Source: Saprospiraceae bacterium (GTDB taxonomy: Bacteria > Bacteroidota > Bacteroidia > Chitinophagales > Saprospiraceae). Taken from it: a stretch of 49,022 nt of DNA. This document shows, piece after piece, positions 1,468 to 18,951 of the stretch. Position numbers and translations under genes: made by a program. Below the pieces are notes generated by a model, which saw nothing but the letters and a program-made list of their open reading frames with translations, searched no databases and was not told the DNA's origin. Location of the stretch: NCBI GenBank assembly GCA_029263015.1, contig JAJCYI010000062.1:1-49022 (forward strand), written 5' to 3'. The first letter of the stretch is position 1; every line of letters starts with the position of its first letter.

Positions 1468-1496
1468 CAGCCATTATTAATGGCTGGTCTTTTTTA
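1468..1496 (+). terminator. Rho-independent terminator after pheS
   Basis: CAGCCATT (1468-1475) pairs with AATGGCTG (1479-1486) across a 3-nt loop and is followed by a T-rich run. It lies 35 nt after the pheS stop codon. Confidence 0.8.
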
Positions 1497-1600
1497 TAAC
1501 GGGCGAAATGTAGAGTGAAAAAGGTACATTTCGCCCGTTATGATTTTTGTAGTGGGCGAAATGCATGTATATTTACCTACTTTCCGCCCGTTATAAAAAA
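1489..1600. repeat. Four-copy alternating inverted-repeat array before AAA ATPase 1
   Basis: Four copies of a motif close to AACGGGCGAAATG occur in alternating orientation: forward 1496-1512, inverse 1525-1541, forward about 1554-1567, inverse about 1581-1594. Copies 1 and 2 form perfect 17-bp inverted arms around a 12-nt spacer. Copies 1 and 4 also share a flanking T-rich block, since TTTTTTATAACGGGCG starts at 1489 and its complement ends at 1600. The array ends 6 nt before the likely ATG (1607) of the ATPase, so it covers the promoter and 5' leader. A repeat array with different sequence but the same layout precedes the paralogous ATPase at 18841. Confidence 0.8.
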
Positions 1601-1606
1601 AACGTC

Positions 1607-3040
1607 ATGGATAAAAAACTGATAGGCCGCCAAAAGGAACAAGAGATTTTAAAAGAAGCTTTACATTCGAGAGAGGCTGAAATGGTAGCTGTTATCGGTC
1701 GGAGAAGGGTAGGGAAGACTTTCTTGATAAAGGAAGTTTACAATCAGCAAATCCTGTTTGAAATAACTGGGCTTCAAGACACTTCCTTGAAAAAACAACT
1801 CCAGCATTTCAGTTTTACCCTGAGCCAATATGCAAAAAATGAAATGCCAATGAAGGATCCCACCAATTGGCTTGAGGCATTTCAACTCTTGGTACTCTAT
1901 CTCGATAAGAAAGGAAAAAAGGAAAAAAGCATTGTTTTTTTTGATGAACTTCCTTGGTTGGCTTCTCGCAGGTCAGACTTTCTCACAGGTCTTGGTTTTT
2001 TCTGGAACAGCTGGGCTGTCAATAAAAATGTGGTGGTGGTCATCTGTGGTTCGGCTGCTTCTTGGATGATAGATAAAGTGGTTAATAATAAAGGCGGGCT
2101 ACATAATAGGATTACCAAACGCATTTTTTTACAACCATTTACATTAGCAGAAACCGAAGCATTTTTAAAAAATAAAAAAATAGGATTTAAGCGGCATCAA
2201 ATTATCGAAATATATATGGCGCTGGGCGGCATCCCACATTATTTAAAAGAAATAAAGTCCGGAAAAAGTCCGGTGCAAAATATTGACGATATATGTTTTT
2301 CAAAAGAAGGAATGTTAAGGGATGAATTTTCGAGGCTTTATCCGTCCTTATTTTCCAATGCTGATAGACATATTTCTGTTATTCGTGCCTTGGGTACTTC
2401 ACATCAAGGCTTGACAAGGCCAACTATTGTACAAAAAGCAAAAATATCGGAAGGAGGAAGCGCATCGAAAGTTTTACAGGAGTTGGAACAGTCAGGATTT
2501 ATTACTTCTTATGTTCCTTTTGGGAAAAAGAAAAAAGATACATTATACCGTTTAACGGATGAATATTCTCTTTTTTATTTACGATTTATTGAAAAAGAAG
2601 CAGATGGCGGGAGCGGTACATGGAAGCATATTAGCCAAACCCAAGCGTATAAAATATGGAGTGGCTATGCTTACGAAAATATTTGTTTGAAGCATATTCC
2701 TCAAATTAAAAAAGCGCTGGATATTGCCGGTGTTTATTCCAAATCTTCCACTTTTATTAAACGAGGAAATGCCGATGAAAAAGGAGCTCAAATAGATTTG
2801 CTTCTGGATCGAAATGACAATGTGATCAATATTTTTGAAATCAAATATTATAATACGGAATTTACGATTAACGAACAATACGCAAATAAACTAAGAGAGA
2901 AAATGCGAATTTTTCAGGAGGCTACTAAAACTAAAAAATATTTATTGCTTACCATGATAACGATATTTGGATTAAAAGGGAATAAGCATAGTTTGGGATT
3001 GGTGGAGCAGGTGTTGGGGTTGGAGGATTTGTTTGGGTGA
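1607..3040 (+). CDS. AAA ATPase with C-terminal DUF234-type nuclease-like domain (copy 1)
   Basis: This is a predicted cytoplasmic P-loop ATPase of the archaeal-type ATPase/DUF234 class (477 aa from this start). Walker A is GRRRVGKT (residues 31-38) and Walker B is IVFFDELPW (D113, E114). A sensor-like stretch ICGSAASWM precedes GGLHNRITKRI. A winged-helix-like part follows (about 270-330). The C-terminal domain has D about 396 and EIK about 411-413, the pattern of a PD-(D/E)XK nuclease fold. The frame is open from 1565, but homology with the paralogue begins at the internal ATG 1607, so that start was chosen. A four-copy inverted-repeat array lies immediately upstream. The family is known; its function is not. 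Sequence-specific binding to its own array is inference. Confidence 0.85.
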   Translation: MDKKLIGRQKEQEILKEALHSREAEMVAVIGRRRVGKTFLIKEVYNQQILFEITGLQDTSLKKQLQHFSFTLSQYAKNEMPMKDPTNWLEAFQLLVLYLDKKGKKEKSIVFFDELPWLASRRSDFLTGLGFFWNSWAVNKNVVVVICGSAASWMIDKVVNNKGGLHNRITKRIFLQPFTLAETEAFLKNKKIGFKRHQIIEIYMALGGIPHYLKEIKSGKSPVQNIDDICFSKEGMLRDEFSRLYPSLFSNADRHISVIRALGTSHQGLTRPTIVQKAKISEGGSASKVLQELEQSGFITSYVPFGKKKKDTLYRLTDEYSLFYLRFIEKEADGGSGTWKHISQTQAYKIWSGYAYENICLKHIPQIKKALDIAGVYSKSSTFIKRGNADEKGAQIDLLLDRNDNVINIFEIKYYNTEFTINEQYANKLREKMRIFQEATKTKKYLLLTMITIFGLKGNKHSLGLVEQVLGLEDLFG

Positions 3041-3511
3041 GGGGCATGAGTTATTTTTTCGTACCGTTAAAATTTTAAAAATAGTATATGAAAGCATTGA
3101 TAATTGGAAATGGATTCGATTTAAATCTTGGTTTACCTACCAGTTATAATGATTTTGTTGATAGCGCAGAATTTAAAAGGCTTTTATTAAAAGAAAATAA
3201 ATTAGCAGAACATTTATCTGAAATCAAAAAAGAGAAGCGATGGGTAGACATAGAACATGAATTCATTGACTATTCAAGAACTGGTAATAACGCTAGTTTT
3301 TATAGTGAATATATCTCATTAAAAAAGGCTTTAATTCAATATTTAAAAAATATAGATTATTCGAAAATAGATGAAAAATCTAAAGCATACTCATTATTAT
3401 CAAACAACCTTAAAGCTTCAGGTGCAAATGTTATTCTAAATTTTAATTATACAGATGCCGTTGAAAGTATAGTTAGAAGATATAGTAATAAACTTACTCA
3501 AGTTATCTATA

Positions 3512-3519
3512 TTCATGGT
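3512..3519. repeat. Left target-site duplication of the IS
   Basis: TTCATGGT directly precedes the left end of the IS and is repeated exactly at 4946-4953 after the right end. An 8-bp duplication is usual for IS256-family elements. Confidence 0.9.
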
Positions 3520-4945
3520 GAGATAGTTTCATTTTTAGTTGAAATTTTTCATCCATAATTAAATTGGCGAAAAAATTCAAGAGGCCTTTTTCTGTTTTCG
3601 TTGCTCGACCTCCCTCTTTAGGGCGGCTATCATTTGGGGAAGCTTTTTGTACTTGTCGACCTTCCTCATCCTTTTTTCCATATCCATTATCCCGCAAACA
3701 ACCCATCTATACCGCATGTCGGAACTCGACCAGTTTTTGACCCGGCCAATATATTTGCCCAGGCAACTGTTCAGGTTTTCGATGCAGTTGGTTGTTTTGA
3801 ACGACCTCCCGAAATTTATTATCAGCCCCAACCGGTGCAGGGTCAATGTCTCTTCCAGCCCTTCCTGTAAAGATTTTGCCGCCGCCCGGTTGACGACGAT
3901 CAGCTCGTCATGGATTTCTTTGAGGTTTTCTTTGGCTTCCTTATAGGTGTCTCGGCCATATGCCTTTTGCAGTTTTGCCCGGTACTTTTCTTTGTTCTCT
4001 TCGTTGAGGTACCCAACCACGTTTTCACGTTTGTGCCACTGACATCTCTGGATGACAGCGGCGTCCCCAAAAACATCTTCCGCCGCTTTCCTTATGCCCT
4101 TTGCACCGTCGATAACGCACAAAAGGCCATCGTCATATTTTAGGCCACGATCGACCAGTTCCCGTAAAAGCCCCCCGATGCTGTTGGCATTTTCAGTGTT
4201 TGTCTGGACGATGCCCAAGGGTATTTTTTCGCCCTCGCCGCTTACCCCGAGGACTATGACCATCTGGTCCCCGGCCATGTATTTGCCATCGATGAACAGG
4301 GCAACAAACTTGTGGGCATCCCGTTTCCGTTGTTCAAAATCAACCAGTGCCGCACGGCTACGCTCCTGGAACTGTCGGCTCACACTGGCTGCGCTGTGGC
4401 CAAAGCTGTCGTTCAGGCGGTCTATCACCTCCCCGTAATCACGTGTGCTGATACCGTGCAGCACCTGTTCCATCAACGACCTGTCCTGTTCGGGCAGCTC
4501 TTTGAGTTTTTCATAGGATTCCAGCGGGACGTGCTGCCCTCTTTGCCGGTCAAAAACACGGGGCACGTCCATCTTGATCTTTTGGCCACCGACCCTGATG
4601 CTCCCCGGGTTGAAGCCCCATCTTTGATACCTGTCCCCATTGGGGCCGTTGCGTTTGTATTTTTCACCAGCCAGTTCACACACCGACCCTTCCAAAATTG
4701 AGTTCAGTACAATCCTGACAATCTCGAAATGTTGCTGGGCTATGCTTAACTGGGTGTCTATTGGCTGAGAAAACAACCAGTCCATTTTTTGGCGGTTGAT
4801 GCTGTTTGACTTAATTTTACTCATGGTTCTTGTTTTTTGTTTGTTGTTTTTTTGCAATCACAAATTAACAATTTCCAAGAACCTCTTTTTCTTTTCACCA
4901 GCCTTTTTACTGATCCCGAATTTCAACTAAGAATGTAACATCCTC
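3520..4945 (-). mobile_element. Complete IS256-family insertion sequence (1426 bp)
   Basis: Terminal inverted repeats are 3520-3546 and 4919-4945 (27 bp, 22 identical), sharing the core TTAGTTGAAATT. The element is flanked by the 8-bp direct repeat TTCATGGT. It carries a single transposase gene on the minus strand. The interior is clearly richer in G+C than the AT-rich abiH gene around it, consistent with recent arrival from elsewhere. Confidence 0.93.
3577..4857 (-). CDS. IS256 (Mutator)-family transposase
   Basis: This is the DDE transposase that moves the surrounding element (426 aa, usual size). The catalytic acidic residues lie in LFIDGKYM (first Asp), LCVIDGAKGIRK (second Asp) and TNCIENLNS (Glu). 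RCQWHKRENV carries the C-x2-H signature of this family between the second Asp and the Glu. An alternative start is the ATG at 4824 (MSKIKSNS), 11 codons in; neither start has a clear ribosome-binding site. The frame is intact, so the element could still be active. It is transcribed against abiH. Confidence 0.95.
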   Translation of the reverse strand: MQKNNKQKTRTMSKIKSNSINRQKMDWLFSQPIDTQLSIAQQHFEIVRIVLNSILEGSVCELAGEKYKRNGPNGDRYQRWGFNPGSIRVGGQKIKMDVPRVFDRQRGQHVPLESYEKLKELPEQDRSLMEQVLHGISTRDYGEVIDRLNDSFGHSAASVSRQFQERSRAALVDFEQRKRDAHKFVALFIDGKYMAGDQMVIVLGVSGEGEKIPLGIVQTNTENANSIGGLLRELVDRGLKYDDGLLCVIDGAKGIRKAAEDVFGDAAVIQRCQWHKRENVVGYLNEENKEKYRAKLQKAYGRDTYKEAKENLKEIHDELIVVNRAAAKSLQEGLEETLTLHRLGLIINFGRSFKTTNCIENLNSCLGKYIGRVKNWSSSDMRYRWVVCGIMDMEKRMRKVDKYKKLPQMIAALKREVEQRKQKKAS

Positions 4946-16698: not shown

Positions 16699-17346
16699 CT
16701 ACCGTTCGCTGCTCGCCGTCTGTCGTTTCCCGTCCAAAACCTCCATCAGCTCACTTATCATCATGGCTGTGGCGCCCCACAAAACTTTACTTTCAACATC
16801 ATAATATGGGACTTTTTTCAATGACAAATGCTTGTTGACGCGGATGTCAGTCACGCGCTTGGTTGCTTCGTTTCGAAAATGTGAAAGTGGCACTTCGAGT
16901 ACCTGACTGACTTCCTCTTCCTGAATGGAATAAGTAGGCTGGCAATCCAAAAAGCCCACATAAGGATGCACTTGGAAATTGCTCACCGGAATGTACAGCT
17001 CGCTCAACTTGCCCAGTATTTTTATTTCTTTTTGTAAAATGCCGACCTCTTCTTCCGTTTCCCTCAGAGCTGTTTTCAGCATTGTGCCGTCGTGGGGTTC
17101 TGCTTTCCCTCCGGGGAAACTGATCTGACCACCATGCCGGTCTCTATCATTGGGATTGCGCTGAATGAGCACTATGTGCCAAGCCCCGTTTTTTGGAAAA
17201 AGCGTGGCGAGAACACCTGCTTGCCGAGCATCTTCAGGAGCAGCCATGTACAGGCGACGGGAAGTAGGTGCCATTTTGAGTTGAGCTTCGCGGCCTGGGA
17301 GGTTTTGTTGGAGGTTTTGTTGAAGTTTGTTTATGAAGTCAGACAT
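16699..17346 (-). CDS. Nudix hydrolase, CoA pyrophosphatase-like
   Basis: This is a predicted cytoplasmic nucleoside-diphosphate-linked hydrolase (215 aa). The Nudix box is complete: GGKAEPHDG, then TALRETEEEVGI (GX5EX7REUXEEXGU). The preceding HGGQISFPGG matches the signature of the NudL/CoA-pyrophosphatase group, which splits CoA into 3',5'-ADP and phosphopantetheine. The ATG at 17346 gives MSDFINKLQQNLQ. The C-terminus includes YYDVESKVLWGATAMM, also typical of this group. It shares strand and direction with the upstream ATPase but is separated by 79 nt. Substrate assignment is by motif only. Confidence 0.88.
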   Translation of the reverse strand: MSDFINKLQQNLQQNLPGREAQLKMAPTSRRLYMAAPEDARQAGVLATLFPKNGAWHIVLIQRNPNDRDRHGGQISFPGGKAEPHDGTMLKTALRETEEEVGILQKEIKILGKLSELYIPVSNFQVHPYVGFLDCQPTYSIQEEEVSQVLEVPLSHFRNEATKRVTDIRVNKHLSLKKVPYYDVESKVLWGATAMMISELMEVLDGKRQTASSER

Positions 17347-17425: not shown

Positions 17426-18841
17426 CTATTGAAATAATACGTTCATATCCAAACTGTTCCGAACTATGTCCGAATATTTATTTTGCGCCATTCCATAGGT
17501 GGTGATGAGAGTCAGAAACAAAACCTTTTTCGTTTGGGTTGTTTGCTTGAAATTGTCCATTTTATTCCTCAGGTTTTCGGAATATCTTTTATCAATTGAA
17601 AAAGGACTAACAGAAAATTTCATTTCGCAAAGATTGATGACCTGGTCTTTGCGGTCAATCACTAAATCAATTTGAGCCTCCGGCGACTGCCATGCTGAAA
17701 TGGAAGTCTGAACGCCACTGATGCCCAAAGCTTTTTTGATTTGAAAAACGTGGTGCAGGCATACCATTTCAAATGCATATCCGCTCCAGGTAAAAAAAAC
17801 AGGAGCTTCAATGGCGTTCAGCCAAAACTCTTCGTCATCCTCGTCGGCATTTTTTATAAACCTCAGATAGAATAGAGAATACAAATCAACGAGTTGGTAC
17901 AGCGATTTTTTTTGTTTTTTTCCAAACGATTTATATCGCCGGATAAAGTTACTTTCTTCCAGTTCTTTTAAGATACGGGTCAGTCCTCCGCCATCTGATG
18001 TTTTGGAAAATTTAACGATTTCATTTCTGGTCAGGCCTTTTCCTTTTGTCGCCAACGCCTCAATAATGGCTATATGGCGTTCGTGTTTTTTAAAAAGAGA
18101 AGCATATAAACTATCATATTCCAACCGGAAAGGGGCATCCTGCCGAAAGCACAGATCATTGATGTTTTGCATGGCACTTTTTTCGGGGTCAATAAAATCC
18201 AGATAATAAGGGATGCCCCCGAAAGCCATGTATATGAGCAGGGTCTGATAGCGGTTGTAAACAGCATTTTTCTGCTGTAAAAAAACCTCCGTTTCTTCTA
18301 GTGAAAAAGGGGCTAACTTGATACGATCAGTGATTCGGTTGTGCAGCCCGCCCTTGTTTTTGATTAAATGGTTGAGCATCCAGGAAGCCGCCGAACCACA
18401 GACAATTAAAACGACATCATCACGAGCACTTGCCCAACTGTTCCAGAAATGTTCCAAACCAGAGAGGAACTTGGAGTTGTGGGTATCCAGCCAGGGCAGT
18501 TCGTCGAGGAATATGACCTTTTTATTTCCATCTGGCAGCTTTTCTAAGTATTCTGACAACTGGCGGAATGCCACAAACCAATCTGTTGCGGCCTGCGGCT
18601 CCCAACGGACAGCAGCGGCATGCTTCACCAAGGCTGCATGAAACTGGCCAAGCTGGTGCTTCATGGAAACATTCGCCAATCCGGTCAATTGGAACGAAAA
18701 GTCATTTTTGAATGCTTTTCTGACCAAAAATGTCTTACCAACCCGCCGCCGGCCGTAAACCGCCACGAACTCCGATTTGCGGGACATTAAGTGGGATTCC
18801 AGTTTTTTCAATTCTCCTTTTCTGCCGATCAGTGGATTCAT
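17426..18841 (-). CDS. AAA ATPase with C-terminal DUF234-type nuclease-like domain (copy 2)
   Basis: This 471-aa protein is a clear paralogue of the 1607-3040 product: LIGRKGE and GRRRVGKT (Walker A, residues 30-37), VIFLDELPWL (Walker B), CGSAASWML, KGGLHNRITDRI and LYSLFYLRFIK all correspond. The C-terminal nuclease-like site is AQIDLVIDRKDQVI followed by CEMK. The frame opens at 18871 with TTG, but the ATG at 18841 matches the paralogue's start. A four-copy alternating repeat array begins 9 nt upstream of this ATG. Like copy 1 it stands among housekeeping genes. The function is unknown; DNA binding and self-regulation are inferred from the array. Confidence 0.87.
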   Translation of the reverse strand: MNPLIGRKGELKKLESHLMSRKSEFVAVYGRRRVGKTFLVRKAFKNDFSFQLTGLANVSMKHQLGQFHAALVKHAAAVRWEPQAATDWFVAFRQLSEYLEKLPDGNKKVIFLDELPWLDTHNSKFLSGLEHFWNSWASARDDVVLIVCGSAASWMLNHLIKNKGGLHNRITDRIKLAPFSLEETEVFLQQKNAVYNRYQTLLIYMAFGGIPYYLDFIDPEKSAMQNINDLCFRQDAPFRLEYDSLYASLFKKHERHIAIIEALATKGKGLTRNEIVKFSKTSDGGGLTRILKELEESNFIRRYKSFGKKQKKSLYQLVDLYSLFYLRFIKNADEDDEEFWLNAIEAPVFFTWSGYAFEMVCLHHVFQIKKALGISGVQTSISAWQSPEAQIDLVIDRKDQVINLCEMKFSVSPFSIDKRYSENLRNKMDNFKQTTQTKKVLFLTLITTYGMAQNKYSDIVRNSLDMNVLFQ

Positions 18842-18850
18842 CCGATATTT

Positions 18851-18951
18851 ATTTTGGCTGAAAGTAGTCAAAAATAAGGACTTTTAGCCAAAATGAACTT
18901 CCATTTTGGCTAAAAGCAAGATCAAATAGATAGTTACAGCCAAAATGAAAG
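18851..18951. repeat. Four-copy alternating inverted-repeat array before AAA ATPase 2
   Basis: Four copies of a motif close to AGCCAAAATG occur in alternating orientation at 18851-18864, 18881-18895, 18902-18916 and 18937-18951. The middle two form perfect 15-bp arms (CTTTTAGCCAAAATG and its complement) with a 6-nt spacer. In gene direction the order is inverse, forward, inverse, forward, and the last copy lies 9 nt before the ATG. The motif sequence is unrelated to the array at 1489-1600, yet copy number, alternation, the AAATG-inward central pair and the position match. Confidence 0.8.

Follow-up and report, generated by a model that had tools for sequence, protein, structure and literature searches.

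What do four copies of one motif, set in alternating orientation in front of an ATPase gene, do for that gene? The question was raised by a 49,022-nucleotide stretch of a Saprospiraceae genome (contig JAJCYI010000062.1, positions 1 to 49,022), which is called the window throughout. A preliminary description had noted the copies and had offered autoregulation, a selfish or addiction-like unit, or a defence system as explanations. The start codon of the ATPase gene was taken as 1607, and the start at 1565 given by the ORF tool was set aside. Array and gene are composed as follows.

1494..1511, minus strand: array site 1, ACATTTCGCCCGTTATAA on the minus strand
1526..1543, plus strand: array site 2, ACATTTCGCCCGTTATGA
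1547..1564, minus strand: array site 3, GCATTTCGCCCACTACAA on the minus strand
1579..1596, plus strand: array site 4, ACTTTCCGCCCGTTATAA, 10 nt from the ATG
1607..3040, plus strand: ATPase_2 / PDC-S27 gene, 477 aa
1697..1720, plus strand: Walker A region GRRRVGKT (residues 31-38), with G31, R32, R33, G36, K37 and T38 invariant in 147 proteins
2360..2554, plus strand: winged-helix region (residues 252-316), from the AF2 model
2450..2470, plus strand: putative recognition residues E282, S285 and K288, from covariation
2534..2536, plus strand: wing residue K310, covarying with motif position 4
2642..2959, plus strand: PD-(D/E)XK-like C-terminal domain (residues 346-451; E357, Q395, D397, E411, K413)

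The four 18-bp sites lie 5' of the gene and alternate in the order -/+/-/+ over 1494-1596, as described before; none of 60 dinucleotide shuffles reached the score of this array. The distance of 6 nt to the ATG given earlier was wrong, since 10 nt separate the end of the last 18-mer from the ATG at 1607. Sites 1 and 2 share a 17-nt stretch of perfect complementarity. Using a fixed 16-nt gap and up to 3 mismatches, the window dyad was found in the 6.95-Mb assembly at 1501-1536 and 1554-1589 and nowhere else. As the dyad is confined to its own gene, a dispersed repeat was rejected for the window motif, whose repeats are not spread away from the gene.

A second gene of the same kind is located on the opposite strand of the window.

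17426..18841, minus strand: second PDC-S27 paralogue, 471 aa
18932..18949, plus strand: paralogue array site 1
18900..18917, minus strand: paralogue array site 2
18880..18897, plus strand: paralogue array site 3
18848..18865, minus strand: paralogue array site 4

Its four copies at 18848-18949 are spaced almost as in the first array, and the layout is nearly the same, as had been stated. To call the two motifs unrelated was too strong, because they have the flanking frame in common and differ in the core bases. Two weaker dyad matches of the second motif elsewhere in the genome (2 and 3 mismatches) were taken for chance. Two further full-length paralogues are encoded in this genome. One of them (L002) carries a standard array. 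The other (L003) has its four alternating sites at positions -272, -241, -221 and -189 relative to the ATG, with matrix scores of 11.0, 13.0, 12.2 and 8.9, compared to a 95% point of 8.8 for the best score in shuffled sequence. Here, the array is separated from the gene by a palindromic element of about 160 nt with many other genomic copies (65 matches in genome G000, both strands counted). We rejected the reading of the L003 array as two pairs of another motif, since the inverted repeat in question is the inserted repetitive element. All 4 full-length paralogues thus carry an array. Close to the second gene, within a NUDIX ORF (16699-17346), a perfect 12-nt tandem repeat was observed at 17298-17321 (GGAGGTTTTGTT twice).

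Both window proteins matched the PADLOC profile PDLC04984 over their full length, with E-values of 9.7e-201 (residues 2-476) and, for the paralogue, 2.5e-201 (residues 1-470). For PF01637 (ATPase_2) 67.1 and 56.7 bits were obtained against a gathering threshold of 33.2 (best E 2.6e-18). PF03008 (DUF234) was matched by the second paralogue with 23.1 bits at a cutoff of 22.5, while the first yielded no match to it at E<=0.001; the WYL family was absent among the Pfam matches of the window proteins at E<=0.001. The Walker residues and Q395, D397, E411 and K413 were invariant in all 147 aligned proteins. An AF2 model of the window protein based on 147 sequences (mean pLDDT 93.8, pTM 0.91) placed helices at 252-262, 271-278 and 284-295 and strands at 299-302 and 313-316, which together form a winged helix. 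The helix 284-295 is the recognition helix of the model; residues 285 and 288 are on it, 282 just before it and 310 between the strands of the wing. Best Foldseek matches were the archaeal ATPases PABY2304 and SSO1545 (2qen, 2fna), followed by Orc/Cdc6 proteins (e.g., 2qby) and plant NLRs. We take the order of elements after residue 346 to match the PD-(D/E)XK core. Residues 346-451 fit a PD-(D/E)XK-like domain by their invariant residues, their order of helices and strands and the published description of the family, which in the accessible part of the source is given a PD-(D/E)XK domain (PMC12988326). The domains named in the preliminary description (Walker motifs, a winged helix and a PD-(D/E)XK-like C-terminus) were therefore recovered, and the PDC-S27 protein is presumably an active nuclease.

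In order to define how general the array is, 60 genomes were searched, of which 24 contained a match, with up to 23 matches per genome, fragments included. Along with 69 further places and the best 80 of 584 named loci, 179 matches were obtained, corresponding to 166 distinct proteins, of which 156 were kept (>440 aa, at least 200 nt upstream). Four alternating 11-mers at any spacing reached a score of at least 40 in 89 of the 156 genes, but in none of the 156 shuffles or 152 downstream stretches. Using a fixed lattice of about 31/22/31 nt and a score of at least 56, 104 of the 156 genes were found, compared to none of 468 shuffles or 152 downstream stretches; 107 genes scored above the highest shuffle. 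Direct-repeat lags peaked at 51-54 nt, with a weaker peak at 103-108, and in some genes the lattice extended to 6 or 8 sites. The array is genuine and a general feature of the family. The expectation of upstream repeats in relatives held for the 104 genes, but not for all: 52 of the 156 stayed below the lattice threshold, some with stretched or interrupted arrays (e.g., L003), others with no visible array. By eye, no clear array was seen in 3 loci of the distant S27 branch (PDLC04985), and four viral relatives at 24-26% identity did not score above their shuffles.

Most of the best 80 of 584 named loci carry a Bacteroidota label; a few come from MAGs assigned to Planctomycetes, Myxococcota or Alphaproteobacteria, which could be binning errors. 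Plasmids (6 records), phages (5 records) and viral contigs (16) carry family members as well. Eight of the 11 plasmid and phage members were analyzed. For the copies of Wolbachia phage WO and of a Butyrivibrio plasmid 0 of 60 shuffles reached the array score, for two records with the same upstream DNA it was 1 of 60, and in 4 of the 8 the score was not above the shuffles. One of the latter, on an Emticicia plasmid, has one clear dyad, which fits the residue-base code described below. From the viral contigs 11 of 16 members were analyzed: 3 were clearly above their shuffles (60, 69 and 72 versus maxima of 48, 44 and 46), 1 was marginal and 7 were not above them. In Wolbachia phage WO (MN180249, 4001-5464) a family member with its own four-site array is located among head and tail genes. 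A second survey, covering 395 genomes of the phylum, gave a match in 21, the window's own genome included. Thirteen small genomes of one genus (g103; L224-L227, L229-L237) contained one match each (E<=1e-60), with arrays of TTTGGC type; this single copy per genome is unlike the multi-copy pattern in the window's family.

TAnnTTTG is the -7 element of Bacteroidota, and boxes resembling it were found between sites 3 and 4 of both window arrays.

1568..1575, plus strand: -7-like box TATATTTA, 5 of the 6 fixed bases of TAnnTTTG, predicted promoter
18869..18876, minus strand: paralogue -7-like box TATTTTTG, 6 of 6 fixed bases

For the family, the 83 of 108 registered-motif genes that have a forward site no more than 60 nt from the ATG were used, a set differing from the 83 genes of the covariation analysis. 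All six fixed bases were present in spacer 3-4 of 20 of these 83 genes, but in 0 of 83 control spacers one repeat upstream and in 2% of shuffled spacers. The box match was better in spacer 3-4 for 47 genes and better in spacer 1-2 for 4 (p 2e-10). The promoter is thus predicted to lie inside the array. Among the explanations offered at the outset, autoregulation is favoured by this position, and repression by occlusion would be its likely form, because the box sits within the array.

The complementarity of neighbouring sites might also be read at the level of RNA, with two leader hairpins acting as attenuator or RNA antitoxin. Sites 1-2 and 3-4 are able to pair, the 17 perfectly complementary nucleotides of window sites 1 and 2 being the clearest case, and arm mismatches were more often G-T than A-C (47 versus 33 and 46 versus 34). 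However, most arm mismatches are neither, and the G-T excess was equally large in the non-hairpin pair 2-3 (55 versus 26). Moreover, the direct partners 1-3 and 2-4 resemble each other more (0.842, 0.858) than the hairpin partners 1-2 and 3-4 (0.79, 0.82). The arm comparisons thus disfavour the hairpins. Together with the predicted promoter inside the array and the covariation of site bases with protein residues, they make a function as RNA very improbable.

This covariation was analyzed for 83 registered arrays (score of at least 39, period 50-56). Their sites share one family frame, ASWTT...ATATAA, around a gene-specific core. Weighted mutual information was calculated for 18 x 477 pairs in the 83 genes (effective number 65). 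The pair of motif position 6 and E282 ranked first (z 17.7), followed by motif 5 with E282, motif 9 with K288, motif 10 with S285 and motif 4 with K310. Six tested pairs all exceeded the maximum over the 477 columns in 300 permutations each, the pair of motif 9 and residue 285 narrowly (0.574 versus 0.548). A small set of rules was obtained. At residue 282, N is accompanied by A at motif 6 (26 of 29 cases), S or T by TGG (13 of 14), E by C at motif 6 (14 of 16) and D by C at motif 5 (17 of 18). R288 goes with C at motif 9 (25/28), K310 with T at motif 4 (52/55) and R310 with A (16/18). The rules were then applied to 25 held-out genes outside the 83 (lattice score of at least 54), registered with the family matrix. 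Among genes having a rule residue, 22 of 23 followed the rule for 282 and motif 6 (8.8 expected), 20 of 23 that for 282 and motif 5 (13.1 expected), 7 of 8 that for 288 (3.3 expected) and 20 of 20 that for 310 (11.4 expected). The search of 395 genomes added 21 new loci, one of them without upstream DNA; by eye, residue 282 fitted the expected base in 20 of 20, of which 13 are from one genus and some have two or three sites only.

To limit the influence of shared ancestry, each base was predicted only from genes of <50% identity (108 genes). Residue 282 then gave the correct motif 6 base in 84 genes, compared to 53 for the next best column and a baseline of 38, and residue 310 the correct motif 4 base in 101, compared to 85 and a baseline of 78. 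For motif 5 residue 282 led with 71 versus 65; 285 and 288 were top by one or tied. Using 54 disjoint sister pairs, joint changes of residue and base were found for 282/6 (p 0.002), 288/9 (p 0.0004), 285/9 (p 0.0002), 285/10 (p 0.01) and 310/4 (p 4e-5), and were not clear for 282 and motif 5 (p 0.057). Ranked against all columns in these pairs, 310 was first for motif 4, 285 and 288 were third and fourth for motif 9, and 282 was outside the top four for motif 6. The sister pairs support the proposed code, with this reservation for 282. Within genomes, 1 of 280 pairs had identical 8-mer cores, compared to 28 of 5498 pairs between genomes, which gives no indication of selection for difference; genome G031 has 18 registered arrays with 17 different 8-base cores.

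Covariation of this kind had been proposed as the test of a private recognition sequence for each protein. It was found at 282, 285, 288 and 310 and, in addition, the window dyad occurs at no other place in the assembly. Judged from these sequence comparisons, it is strongly supported that the winged helix would read its own array. The array could instead be the operator of another, host-encoded regulator. This is extremely unlikely, as the helix and wing residues of the neighbouring protein itself predict the site bases, and G031 with its 17 cores in 18 arrays would require as many regulators.

A further reading concerns the nuclease. The array might guide it, so that DNA carrying the protein's own sites is cut or spared, for rival exclusion or self-protection. 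The catalytic residues are invariant in 147 of 147 proteins and share one polypeptide with the winged helix whose residues covary with the sites. On the other hand, the only dyads of the window type in the assembly are those at the gene itself, where cutting would be suicidal. Viral contigs were searched for decoy arrays, and the exact window dyad had 0 matches in them. As the promoter geometry already accounts for the array, we consider guidance of the nuclease rather unlikely.

Seven close pairs of family members with 83-92% DNA identity are located at separate loci. In 5 of the 7 (the three pairs of L107/L109/L110, L037/L140 and L135/L137) the match starts in the array region and ends no more than 6 nt from the stop codon. 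L107, L109 and L110 are 86-89% identical from the array through the stop codon; for L037/L140 and L135/L137 the match takes in the nearer half of the array only. No flank match was found for these 5 pairs at E<=1e-3 in the available flanks (142 nt for the 3' flank of L107), so nothing outside array and ORF was conserved there. In the remaining two pairs the matches reach beyond array and ORF: L141/L146 are syntenic, and L073/L170 share 3' DNA. In several close pairs, array and ORF are thus a shared unit at different sites. The pattern would fit a mobile element that is moved by the protein itself (TnsC/TnsA-like or homing) and has the array as its end or recombination site, as would the shared segment of L107/L109/L110 with its unmatched flanks and the members on plasmids, phages and viral contigs. 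Inspection of the close pairs by eye, however, revealed neither an end sequence nor a common 3' sequence past the stop codon, and the array, which contains the -7-like box, holds a fixed position with respect to the ATG. An element end of this kind is therefore improbable.

Genome G010 is the closest relative by PheS and AspS. At its pheS site (L185) four sites are kept without an ATPase gene, the first dyad apparently inverted compared to the window, and the array is followed by an ORF which we presume to resemble an RNA ligase. At the aspS site of G010 the ATPase copy is broken. In the window itself, an N-terminal AbiH fragment (3088-3558) and a transposase of the Mutator family (3577-4857) are located just downstream of the ATPase gene. 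An inverted repeat with 36-nt arms (92%) at 27-182 encloses a second repeat with 20-nt arms at 80-128 and has a MITE-like look.

Of 231 neighbouring ORFs of at least 110 aa at 73 loci, 150 were scanned for a recurring partner, and none was found. Any one PADLOC family occurred in at most 2 of the 150 ORFs, any one Pfam family in at most 4; the neighbours were varied, with scattered defence genes, and a conserved second gene of the toxin-antitoxin type was absent among them. Over these 150 ORFs, PDC-S27 behaves as a single-gene system without a fixed partner. The earlier idea of a selfish or defence unit is compatible with the PADLOC match to PDC-S27 and with array and ORF shared between sites. 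A role in phage defence, for which the PADLOC label speaks, or as a selfish element may be supposed.

Taken together, the data argue for a one-gene self-regulating unit whose protein probably binds the array at its own promoter and, most likely, represses it. Two marks of an autoregulated operator are apparent: covariation and held-out prediction indicate that the protein's own DNA-binding domain reads the site, and the -7-like box consensus indicates that the site overlaps the promoter. In the proposed mechanism a protein made of an NB-ARC/Orc-like ATPase, a winged helix and a PD-(D/E)XK-like domain would bind, via the winged helix, to at least four alternating 18-bp sites 5' of its own gene. 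The bound array would most likely block RNA polymerase, because the -7-like box lies between sites 3 and 4, and expression would be kept low. Sites 1 and 2 may add cooperative binding. The variable bases would be read by residue 282 together with 285 and 288 and, in the wing, by residue 310, whereas the frame is common to the family. Physical contact of protein and array is what the code suggests; repression rather than activation appears the more plausible outcome, and autorepression would be the simplest consequence of a winged helix reading its own array. Residues and array would change together, giving each unit its own switch, so that many units could coexist and move as array plus ORF.

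A tentative extension, to which we give a rather low chance, would make the repressor the effector as well. As long as the array is occupied, the ATPase-nuclease would stay scarce and perhaps silent; it would be freed when the array is lost or titrated, by breakdown of the chromosome during phage attack or by incoming copies of the same sites. The modular code would let units, including those of phages and plasmids, coexist as separate switches. In any case, the arrays can be tested directly, as they provide most genes with a predicted operator, together with a predicted promoter and a small code (chiefly 282 and 310) for the bases that each protein would read. Natural protein-operator pairs are numerous and could be used as switches; they could also tell whether an NLR-like ATPase-nuclease is restrained by its own promoter.

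Finally, the unit was compared with known systems. Closest is the PADLOC candidate PDC-S27 itself, which is the same family (PDLC04984) and likewise a single gene. The accessible part of its publication presents it as an experimentally unvalidated candidate, a frequent one without known mechanism, and contains no mention of upstream arrays, a DNA code or autoregulation (PMC12988326). Among open-licence PMC papers, judged by titles and the openings of abstracts, no description of such arrays was found. In the text available in part for BrxR, a winged-helix repressor acts on inverted repeats by the promoter of a defence gene (PMC9122601). CapW, also considered from partial text, resembles the unit by its winged-helix repressor and inverted repeats at a defence-gene promoter. 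However, both are separate regulator genes with a WYL domain, while the PDC-S27 unit has ATPase-nuclease and DNA reader in one protein, and its sites form a lattice of at least four with a gene-specific core. C proteins of restriction-modification systems and autoregulating antitoxins also have their own operators before their own gene, often two dyads with fixed spacing. Unlike the PDC-S27 unit, they are small regulators apart from the nuclease and are not known to contain an ATPase. PABY2304, SSO1545 and Orc1/Cdc6 are the best structural matches of the window protein. Orc proteins recognise inverted sites close to the genes that encode them, but Orc1/Cdc6 are not known to have a nuclease domain, and the PDC-S27 array differs in holding a promoter-like box. 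In REPIN/RAYT systems palindromic sites are tied to one gene as well; RAYT motifs are scattered over the genome, whereas the window dyad is found at its own gene only. Against this background, the arrays of PDC-S27 and their residue code suggest that each protein may switch its own gene.
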